A stretch of 64,000 nt of DNA, from the NCBI RefSeq assembly GCF_003258295.1, contig NZ_QKYN01000065.1, positions 62,001 through 126,000 of the forward strand, read 5' to 3'. The stretch is from Streptacidiphilus pinicola. GTDB lineage: Bacteria > Actinomycetota > Actinomycetes > Streptomycetales > Streptomycetaceae. The notes beneath the pieces were generated by a model, which did not search any database, had not been told where the DNA came from, and saw nothing but the letters and a program-made list of their open reading frames with translations. Of this stretch, positions 13,848-16,380 are shown one piece after another. Position numbers and translations under genes: made by a program. Every line of letters begins with the position of its first letter. Position 1 is the stretch's first letter.

Positions 13848-13892
13848 CTCAGGAGTGGCCGGCTCAGGAGTGGCCGGCTCAGGAGTGGCCGG
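13848..13892. repeat. Three perfect 15-bp tandem repeats over the stop codon of the DsbA gene
   Basis: The unit CTCAGGAGTGGCCGG occurs at 13848-13862, 13863-13877 and 13878-13892. On the minus strand each unit ends with CACTCCTGA, so the reading frame Gly-His-Ser-stop is repeated, in frame, up to three times; the first copy met by ribosomes supplies the actual C-terminus. Confidence 0.85.
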
Positions 13893-14751
13893 CCCCCGCC
13901 GACGCGGGCAGGTTGTTGTGGGCGGTCGGCGAGGCGAGGGCCTGGGCGCTGGCCGAGGGGATGCTCGCCAGCGGCTTGCCCTTGTTCGCGGTGTCGACCC
14001 ACTTGGTGAAGTTGGCCGGCGAGATGTCCTCACCGTTGTACGTCGAGTAGGCGGAGGTGCCGTTGAGCAGCACCGTCGGTGTGGAGTTGTAGCCGGACTT
14101 GTCGAAGTCCGACTGCACCGCCGTCACCCAGCTGCCGTAGGTGTTGTTGTTGACGCAGGACTCGAAGGCGGGCGAGTCCAGCCCGGGCACCTGCTTGGCC
14201 AGGCTGATCAGGATGGTCTTGTCGGCCCAGGCGTCGTTGGTCTCGTCCGGCTGGTTGGCGTAGAGAACGTCGTGGTAGTTGTGGAACAGCCCGACGTTCT
14301 GCGCGCAGGCCAGCGCGTTGGCCGCGTTCTTCGAGCCCTTGCCGCCGTCGTGGCGGTCGATGAACGACGCGATGTGGTACTGGATCTGGATCTTGCCCTG
14401 GGCCAGCAGCTGGTTGATGGTGCTCTTCATCCCGGTCTCGAACTGCTCGCAGGCCGGGCAGCGCGGGTCCTCGTAGATGGTGACCGTGCTGGGCGCGGTG
14501 GTCCCGCCGACGGGGATCAGCAGCCTGGTGTTGCCGACCGTGCCGGCCGGCGCGTCCGCGGCGGCGTTGTAGCTGCTGGAGCGGCCGTTCTGCACCACGA
14601 TGCCGATCACGACCGCCGCCGCGATGACGACCAGCGCCGCCAGGATGACGGTGAGCTGGCGCCGCTTGCGGGCCGCCGCCTCCTGCTTGGCGCGCTCCGC
14701 CTGCATGCGTTCACGCGCGCTGCGCTTGCCGCCGTCGTTCTTGTTGCTCAT
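13879..14751 (-). CDS. Membrane-anchored DsbA-like thioredoxin-fold protein
   Basis: The product is 290 residues: a basic N-terminal region (1-32), one membrane helix (about 33-53), then an extracytoplasmic DsbA/thioredoxin-fold domain with active site CPAC at 98-101 and the cis-Pro loop STPTVLLNG near 230. Family members oxidise or isomerise thiols of exported proteins. A short Ala/Ser/Pro tail ends inside a 15-bp tandem repeat. I prefer ATG 14751 (MSNKNDGGKR), the usual start in relatives; ATG 14784 overlaps the MauE stop as ATGA and would add 11 residues. It is the last gene of a three-gene redox operon with MauE and a second DsbA-like protein. Confidence 0.88.
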   Translation of the reverse strand: MSNKNDGGKRSARERMQAERAKQEAAARKRRQLTVILAALVVIAAAVVIGIVVQNGRSSSYNAAADAPAGTVGNTRLLIPVGGTTAPSTVTIYEDPRCPACEQFETGMKSTINQLLAQGKIQIQYHIASFIDRHDGGKGSKNAANALACAQNVGLFHNYHDVLYANQPDETNDAWADKTILISLAKQVPGLDSPAFESCVNNNTYGSWVTAVQSDFDKSGYNSTPTVLLNGTSAYSTYNGEDISPANFTKWVDTANKGKPLASIPSASAQALASPTAHNNLPASAGAGHS

Positions 14752-14780
14752 CACGTCTTCTGTTCTGTCGGTGTGTTGAC

Positions 14781-15314
14781 TCATGCGGTCAGCCACCCGT
14801 CCAGCGACAGCCGGGTCTTCGGACGCCAGATCAGCCAGCCCGACAACAGCAGGAAGCCGCAGTCGCGCAGGATCTCCTGCCAGTACTGCGTCTTCGAGGC
14901 GGCCACCGCGCCGCCGCCGCCGAAGCAGCCGCAGTCGATGGAGATCCCGCGCGCCCAGACCGAGGCGATCGAACCGATGTAGACGAGCAGCAGCACGCCG
15001 GAGATGACCGCGGCGATCCGCGTCCCGAGGCCGACCAGGAGCAGCAGCGCGAGCGCCAGCTCCAGGAACGGCAGGCCGTAGCCGAAGGGCTTCACCAGCG
15101 ACTCGGGCAGGATCCGGTAGACGCGCACGGCCTGCGCCGCGGCCTGTGGATCCGAGATCTTCGCCAGGCCCGCCCAGGCCCAGACGACGGCCAGGCCGAT
15201 GCGCACGGCCGTGCCGATCCAGGCCACCACGGCGGTCCCCCTCCTTGCCCCGGGCTCCTCCCGCCCGGCTCTGCCAATTGGGACCAATCCTGCCTTACGT
15301 TCTTTAACGGGCAT
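14781..15314 (-). CDS. MauE/DoxX-family redox-associated membrane protein
   Basis: A 177-residue integral membrane protein with four predicted helices (about 33-52, 79-97, 100-120, 148-164) and the DCGCFG motif at 127-132, whose vicinal cysteines characterise MauE-like proteins linked to thioredoxin-fold partners. MauE proteins are thought to shuttle electrons or disulfides across the membrane to a periplasmic thiol protein. The ATG at 15314 begins 3 bases after the upstream stop and has GGAGA 8 bases upstream, inside the previous gene; its stop overlaps ATG 14784 of the DsbA frame. The gene order strongly suggests it recycles one or both DsbA-like neighbours (inference). Confidence 0.87.
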   Translation of the reverse strand: MPVKERKAGLVPIGRAGREEPGARRGTAVVAWIGTAVRIGLAVVWAWAGLAKISDPQAAAQAVRVYRILPESLVKPFGYGLPFLELALALLLLVGLGTRIAAVISGVLLLVYIGSIASVWARGISIDCGCFGGGGAVAASKTQYWQEILRDCGFLLLSGWLIWRPKTRLSLDGWLTA

Positions 15315-15317
15315 GCG

Positions 15318-16166
15318 TCATTCTCCGCGATTCGCAGCATTCTCCACAAAGCGCTGGAGCGCGGACGGGTCGTCGAGCAGCTCCGGATGCGCCCAGAGGT
15401 CGACCTCGCCACCGTTCAGCAGCATCGACGGGGTGCCGTGGTGCACCCCCGCGGTGTCGTAGAGGTGCTGGGCGGCGTCGACCCAGGGCCTCCAGTAGAG
15501 CGTGCGAACCTCGGAGTCGAACGCCGCCGACCGCAGTCCCGGCACCCTGGCGGCCAGGGCCAGCAGGCGATCGGTGGTGAAGCCGTCCACCTCCTCCGGG
15601 CCCTGATTGGCCAGCAGCAGGGCGTGGAACAGCGGGAACTCCCCGTGGGCCAGCGCGGCGCGCGCCGCGTCGGCGGCGGACACGGCGCCGGGACCGGGCA
15701 GACGTTCGTCGAGTGACGACTCCATCACGTAGTGGACGAGCACCCGGTGACGGGCGATCAGACTGCGCAGCATCGACCCCTGGCGGGCCTCGAAGTTGGC
15801 CGTCTCGGAGCAGCGGTAGTCCTCGAAGAGGGTCAGCTGCACGGGCGCGTCCGCGTAGCCGACGTCGATGCTCACACCGTCGGCGTCCAGCCGGGCCGGC
15901 AGGCCGAGGGCAACGGCGCGGTCCGGCACGTCCGCGAAGACCGGACCGGCCTGCGGCTTGGTCTGCGGCTTGGACTGCGCGGGCCGCGGTTGCGGCTTGG
16001 CAGGGCCCGCATGATGACGGTGACGGTGGCTCACGTGGTGGCCGTGATGCGGGTGGCGCGCCTCGGCCAGCGCCTGGTTGACGGTGGATTCGGCGGCCAC
16101 CGCAAGGGTGAGCACAAGGGCGGCGACGGCGGCCCGGGCCGCCCTGCTGCGCTGGGGATTCGGCAC
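15318..16166 (-). CDS. Exported His-rich DsbA-like protein with a degenerate active site
   Basis: The 282-residue protein starts at GTG 16166 with AGGAGG 5 bases upstream. An N-terminal signal peptide (hydrophobic 10-25, cleavage probably near ALA/AEA 32-37) is followed by a stretch with nine His among residues 38-52 and a Pro/Lys/Gln-rich linker. The rest aligns by eye with the DsbA fold: FEDYRCSETANFE corresponds to the active site of the downstream DsbA, and GTPSMLLNG supplies the cis-Pro loop. The CxxC is reduced to CSET (Cys119 only), so it cannot form the usual intramolecular disulfide. It may be a metal- or thiol-binding partner rather than an oxidase; the function is unknown. Confidence 0.82.
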   Translation of the reverse strand: MPNPQRSRAARAAVAALVLTLAVAAESTVNQALAEARHPHHGHHVSHRHRHHAGPAKPQPRPAQSKPQTKPQAGPVFADVPDRAVALGLPARLDADGVSIDVGYADAPVQLTLFEDYRCSETANFEARQGSMLRSLIARHRVLVHYVMESSLDERLPGPGAVSAADAARAALAHGEFPLFHALLLANQGPEEVDGFTTDRLLALAARVPGLRSAAFDSEVRTLYWRPWVDAAQHLYDTAGVHHGTPSMLLNGGEVDLWAHPELLDDPSALQRFVENAANRGE

Positions 16167-16344: not shown

Positions 16345-16380
16345 ACGAGGGGGCGCGGACCGAAGTCCGCGCCCCCTCGT
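16345..16380 (-). terminator. trpA terminator
   Basis: Arms ACGAGGGGGCGCGGAC and GTCCGCGCCCCCTCGT pair perfectly over 16 bp around a CGAA loop, beginning 9 bases after the trpA stop. This is one of the strongest hairpins in the window and marks the end of the trp operon. Confidence 0.85.

Follow-up and report, generated by a model that had tools for sequence, protein, structure and literature searches.

D1, the product of the first of three co-directional genes lying on the minus strand downstream of trpB and trpA, appears on sequence grounds to be a lineage-specific monothiol derivative of the actinobacterial CxxC DsbA proteins. It is encoded beside a MauE family protein and a membrane-anchored dithiol DsbA (D2), i.e., a pair which is a common unit of actinomycetes, often located beside trpBA, and to which D1 is an addition. 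The reading proposed for D1, tentatively and with a probability of about 0.4, is that of an accessory monothiol reductase/isomerase or thiol holdase beside this pair, keeping substrate binding and the attacking Cys. The features are collected in Table 1; all positions are those of the window, i.e., the whole stretch of 64,000 nucleotides that was analysed.

Table 1. Features of the D1-MauE-D2 genes and of the interval upstream, in window positions.
Feature	Positions	Strand	Basis
D1, exported DsbA-fold protein, 282 aa, monothiol CxxT	15318..16166	-	ORF, Pfam, alignment, model
D1 His-rich linker, residues 38-52	16011..16055	-	9 His in 15
D1 C-S-E-T, residues 119-122, replacing CxxC	15801..15812	-	alignment and codons
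D1 T245-P246, cis-Pro loop position	15429..15434	-	invariant in 11/11 rows
MauE family membrane protein, 177 aa	14781..15314	-	PF07291
MauE DCGCFG motif	14919..14936	-	sequence; CGC in 46/46 matching MauE loci
D2, membrane-anchored DsbA (Thioredoxin_4)	13879..14796	-	PF13462
D2 CPAC active site	14449..14460	-	sequence
Terminator-like hairpin between trpA and D1, without U tract	16345..16380	-	16-bp perfect stem

The D1 gene starts with GTG, preceded by GAGGAGG. The sole Cys of the protein (C119) lies within CSET, and nine His are found in residues 38-52, HPHHGHHVSHRHRHH, between the N-terminal helix and the thioredoxin domain; the exported DsbA-like protein with CSET and nine His in fifteen residues described in the initial annotation is thus confirmed from the sequence. 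D1 is unique among the 281 open reading frames of the window (stop-to-stop, at least 100 codons) in having at least 7 His in 15 residues, and 9 His in 15 was reached by none of 20000 shuffles of its residues. Among the Pfam-A matches at E <= 1, Thioredoxin_4 (PF13462) is the sole model above its cut-off (37.1 bits vs. 23.2) and no glutaredoxin model is present, i.e., D1 does not have the profile of a monothiol glutaredoxin. The NCBIfam model NF041057 (Rcas_1661) gives 25.4 bits, below its cut-off of 190. D1, with CSET, does not possess the CxxC of a dithiol DsbA.

The structure of the domain (residues 79-282) was predicted by AF2 from an alignment of 62 rows, i.e., the window's own sequence and 61 of the 77 available relatives, CxxC forms included (mean pLDDT 96.9, pTM 0.93). 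The highest-scoring structures against the model are BdbD (Z 21.5), MdbA (21.4), Mtb DsbA (20.5-21.0) and both TsdA and its C129S mutant (18.1). It has the DsbA fold with the helical insertion and a T-P loop at the cis-Pro position, and the DsbA-like assignment made initially is thus borne out by structure prediction. In the sequence alignment, T122 falls at the position of the second Cys in A. oris MdbA. The His-rich linker is of low confidence in a first structure model, weak as a whole (pLDDT 63.8), based on 11 rows.

The genus sample comprises 14 Streptacidiphilus genomes, the window's own included. The thioredoxin domain of D1 is retained in 11 of them, and all 11 retained genes encode CxxT (CSTT in four, CSST in three, CSET in two, CSDT and CDST in one each), so that the single-Cys form pointed out initially holds for the whole set. 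The middle residues are variable (SE, SD, DS, ST, SS); C119, T122 and T245-P246 are invariant and each of the 11 aligned rows contains exactly one Cys. It must be noted that 88 of the 204 core positions are invariant across these rows, and thus the invariance of the Cys and the Thr alone is not strong evidence. The orthologues are 53-84% identical to the window D1. Thr is encoded by ACC or ACG. A sequencing error as the source of CSET, which had been set beforehand as a refutation, is ruled out: 11 assemblies agree, and the passage from TGC to ACC or ACG takes two or three changes. In G013 (listed as 76% complete), D1 loses the reading frame ahead of the domain and trpA is broken as well, which makes an assembly fault likely; the G013 row consists of the domain only, its linker being unreadable.

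Ten orthologues have a readable linker. Four of them, i.e., the window's own, G006, G002 and G004, contain the His-rich tract (6-9 His in 15), the other six having at most 2 His in 15. Its pattern varies among the four related species and its composition is kept. The conserved His cluster expected of a His-rich metal-binding protein is thus not found among these 10 linkers, and the stretch appears from this comparison to be a changeable linker. Of the His-rich/CSET form to be searched for in other genomes, the CxxT part is present in all 11 retained genus genes and the His tract in this minority, which argues against the cluster as a defining part of the protein.

Outside the genus, the 18 further D1-like proteins of the family (best hits after the genus) comprise 17 with CxxC and one with DPGS. 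The tree of D1 has 79 rows, 12 of which stand for the 11 genus genes (G013 being present twice, as L013 and L020); four ORF pieces shorter than 150 residues and two remnant ORFs (L028, L029) were left out. The genus D1s form a single clade (100/99), joined with the D1s of genus g11 (100/99). Since these two clades sit among CxxC proteins, the loss of the second Cys is derived, having occurred most simply once, on the genus stem. An origin of D1 by direct duplication of the adjacent D2 is not supported, D1 being grouped with other CxxC DsbAs of the family. A single origin of the operon D1s, those of genus g4 included, is not seen in the free tree and is not rejected by the AU test (p 0.17).

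The pattern [FY]EDxRCxxT was found in 15 of 249 family genomes, and a control pattern in 3. The 15 correspond to the 11 Streptacidiphilus D1s, one DsbA-like protein in G076 and three proteins unlike D1, MauE or D2. Of the 296 genomes of the class sample, in which Streptacidiphilus is represented by the window's own genome alone, six match vs. four for the controls, the DsbA-like matches being the window's own and G076. These patterns fix the flanking EDxR (R, Q or H in the class scan), and other CxxT forms would be missed. The G076 protein, from another genus (L145, C1:1614554-1615096), contains FEDPRCVMT (i.e., CVMT), and no MauE match lies within 1.5 kb of its gene. Another DsbA-like membrane protein is encoded in the window's own genome, and it lacks an active-site Cys (EDMRDPAT; L005/L117, G000:C141:97521-98510). 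Among the relatives of this Cys-free paralogue, NPQS (g7) and DPQS (g17) are found, and most of the others read have CPxC.

MauE matches PF07291 with 105 bits (cut-off 27) and D2 matches PF13462 with 96.5 bits (cut-off 23.2), so the MauE with DCGCFG and the membrane DsbA with CPAC were correctly recognized from the outset. The D1 stop codon is separated from the MauE start by 3 bases. The D2 ORF, if started at 14796, overlaps MauE by 16 bases; nevertheless, M[ST]xKN is common to the 14 genus rows near the D2 start (13 MSxKN and one MTQKN), and the true start is thus probably the ATG at 14751, giving a 29-base gap after MauE. The genes had been described as overlapping or nearly touching: the latter is true of D1 and MauE, the overlap of D2 being likely such a gap. 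A perfect 15-bp tandem repeat (3.1 copies, positions 13848-13893) extends over the 3' end of D2, and its unit includes the D2 stop codon.

The hairpin between trpA and D1 has an energy of -41.3 kcal/mol (z -6.3). Consensus scans detected no sigma-70 promoter and no T-run terminator. Because of this strong hairpin after trpA, D1, MauE and D2 are suggested to form a separate transcription unit. Read-through from the trp genes as an expression route is made less likely by the same hairpin. A loose scan of relatives, made without control, turned up hairpins of different sequence upstream of D1 as well, and some of these may be coding sequence.

MauE was detected in 92 of 197 sampled class genomes (E <= 1e-12) and in 16 of 35 chosen family genomes (E <= 1e-5), i.e., it is absent at these thresholds from about half of the genomes. 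Forty-eight MauE loci were read (the best 30 of the class search and 18 of the family search). A MauE with CGC is followed directly, on the same strand, by a DsbA-like ORF in 46 of them; the remaining two (L085, L086) are weak hits without any match in this comparison. trpA lies at most 1.5 kb upstream in 26 of the 46 MauE-DsbA loci, over eight family codes. A D1-like ORF is inserted between trpA and MauE in 8 of the 46 only (the window's own, three of genus g11 and four of genus g4), and D1 is thus an extra gene, the pair standing without it in the other 38. The operon, a combination not known to the initial annotation as a described system, is thus not supported as a new one, MauE-DsbA being a widespread pair often beside trpBA. 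MauE-DsbA beside trpA is also found in genomes of 2.5-3 Mb (class sample, L069-L116), and MauE is present in genomes of 1.2-1.5 Mb as well. No literature on this pair beside trpBA was found in the titles and abstract beginnings of open-access papers. The pair is a candidate thiol-handling pair of actinomycetes.

The D1s of the two other genera have CPFC in g4, CPDC in g11 G023 and G036, and DPGS, i.e., both Cys gone, in g11 G044. The His-rich tract is absent in the six g11/g4 D1s examined out of seven (G016 was outside the set). Homologues with CPDC and without His tract thus exist in the same operon in the sister genus g11, which is one of the two refutations set beforehand in the initial annotation.

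Selection was estimated as dN/dS by a Nei-Gojobori count without significance test, on 12 of the 55 pairs, i.e., 10 near pairs (within clades) and two distant ones, G001/G011 being left out. For the near pairs the D1 values are 0.17, 0.27, 0.24, 0.25, 0.18, 0.46, 0.40, 0.30, 0.48 and 0.40; the same pairs give 0.16-0.42 for D2 and 0.07-0.25 for MauE, D1 being higher than D2 in 8 of 10 and than MauE in 10 of 10. The distant pairs give 0.44 (D1), 0.52 (D2) and 0.25 (MauE) for own/G011, and 0.58, 0.33 and 0.40, respectively, for G012/G005. Retained D1 thus appears, from these counts, to be constrained, more loosely than its neighbours (mostly D2, always MauE).

In the three other genus genomes (G007, G008, G009), only a 3' remnant of D1 is left, without the 5' half and the active-site region, beside intact MauE (CGC) and D2 (CPAC). 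The remnants (L016, L017, L018) start close to one another, around codons 121-134 and immediately past the active site; this shared start may reflect one common deletion or several. Near its decayed D1, G008 (L017) has a trpA that appears as two parts separated by about 240 bases. The G008 remnant has a dN/dS of 0.56-0.63 vs. own, G006 and G002 (0.42 vs. G004), to be compared with 0.17-0.27 for the intact D1s of own, G006 and G002 among themselves. The G009 remnant (0.40-0.48) is comparable to the distant intact pair own/G011, and the contrast between remnant and intact genes comes from G008 alone, G007 being outside the count. The DPGS form of g11 G044 gives 0.53 and 0.73 vs. two congeners, which give 0.46 between them. 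One operon thus offers a series from dithiol to monothiol or Cys-free DsbA, in which two other genera have CxxC, Streptacidiphilus has CxxT, a single sister species has DPGS and three genomes have remnants.

For the C. diphtheriae protein TsdA, C129 mutants are reported to retain insulin reduction and FimA oxidation in vitro, both activities requiring C126 (PMC9974433, available part of the text). By analogy with these mutants, D1 is probably able to attack disulfides or thiols, and unable alone to donate a disulfide like a dithiol DsbA. As an accessory monothiol protein, D1 would be exported, with its N-terminal helix as anchor, and C119 would attack thiols, or disulfides that are wrong or exposed, in secreted proteins, leading to a mixed disulfide which, without a resolving Cys, would be undone either by the second Cys of the client (isomerase/reductase mode) or by D2/MauE. 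The dithiol work would be done by D2 with MauE, and the His-rich linker would be dispensable. Against this reading count the decay of D1 in 3 of 14 genomes and the DPGS of one sister species. The same observations favour the main rival, possible but rather doubtful, in which D1, a redundant copy of a DsbA, lost its second Cys, is slowly decaying in one lineage after another and no longer performs thiol chemistry of importance: G007, G008 and G009 lack the 5' half and the active site, G044 with DPGS evolves at 0.53 and 0.73 vs. the 0.46 of its congeners, the dN/dS of D1 exceeds that of MauE in all the near pairs and that of D2 in eight, and MauE-DsbA does without any D1-like ORF in 38 of 46 loci. 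The in vivo result for TsdA and the weak contrast given by the G009 remnant also weaken the monothiol reading and strengthen that of decay. Against decay, the domain remains open in 11 of 14 genomes with the same CxxT and T-P, D1 dN/dS is below 0.5 in all 10 near pairs, and the orthologues share 53-84% identity with the window D1.

It is unlikely that D1 is non-redox, i.e., a chaperone or scaffold presenting secreted proteins to MauE-DsbA, with an incidental Cys. Fold and T-P are retained, and since every one of the 14 genus genomes has kept a Cys-free DsbA-like paralogue (D-P-x-[TS]), DsbA folds without active-site Cys are of lasting use in the genus; nevertheless, all 11 D1s have preserved their single Cys, which a purely structural role would not demand. 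The version of the initial annotation, a metal carrier or metal-tuned mixed-disulfide carrier with a functional His cluster, is very improbable. The His richness of D1 is far beyond chance, its composition (6-9 in 15) is kept in four related species, and ERp44, a eukaryotic single-Cys protein (CRFS), is described as zinc-regulated via His residues (PMC13384778, available part). However, six of the 10 readable linkers have at most 2 His in 15 (G013 could not be judged), and the tract varies in pattern and sits in a low-confidence linker. Slighter still is the chance that D1 is a functional counterpart of ERp44, which would capture free-thiol secreted proteins as mixed disulfides and hand them to the MauE-linked CPAC DsbA, with metal tuning of this capture via the His linker in one clade of Streptacidiphilus.

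Among known systems, MauE-MauD offers the same arrangement of a MauE family protein adjoining a thioredoxin-fold gene; MauD is the thioredoxin-fold partner of MauE in the maturation of methylamine dehydrogenase. Unlike there, the partner of MauE is here a PF13462 DsbA beside trpBA. Among solved structures, those of the Mtb DsbA Rv2969c (4JR4, 4K6X) are nearest to D2 in sequence (E 7e-15), and the protein is also a fold match of the D1 model (Z 20.5-21.0), but it is a dithiol enzyme, tied by the title of a paper to VKOR-derived peptides rather than to MauE. S. coelicolor is reported with VKOR (SCO1507) and DsbA (SCO2634) (PMC10433416, available part), and MauE is thus not the sole possible partner type in the family.

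TsdA and MdbA of C. diphtheriae and A. oris (PDB 7UNN, 7UNO, 5C00, 4Z7X) are, like D1, exported actinobacterial proteins with a DsbA fold and a T-P loop (Z 18-21 vs. the D1 model, 15-23% identity). Their active sites are CPFC in TsdA and CPHC in C. diphtheriae MdbA (PMC9974433, available part), and CSHC in A. oris MdbA (alignment), vs. CxxT in D1; TsdA, like D1, is described in the same part as having no further Cys. The replacement of one Cys of CxxC by Ser or Thr (CxxS, CxxT) in many bacterial thioredoxin-fold proteins is mentioned there too (PMC9974433, citing Fomenko and Gladyshev 2003). Such replacement is already known, and D1 is a variation on it; a CxxT DsbA in a MauE-DsbA operon was found in none of the open-access titles and abstract beginnings searched. 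ERp44, as far as its source is available, resembles the proposed D1 in its single attacking Cys, its mixed disulfides and its His residues. It differs in having three Trx domains, an ER/Golgi location and a structured His cluster, and no common ancestry is claimed.
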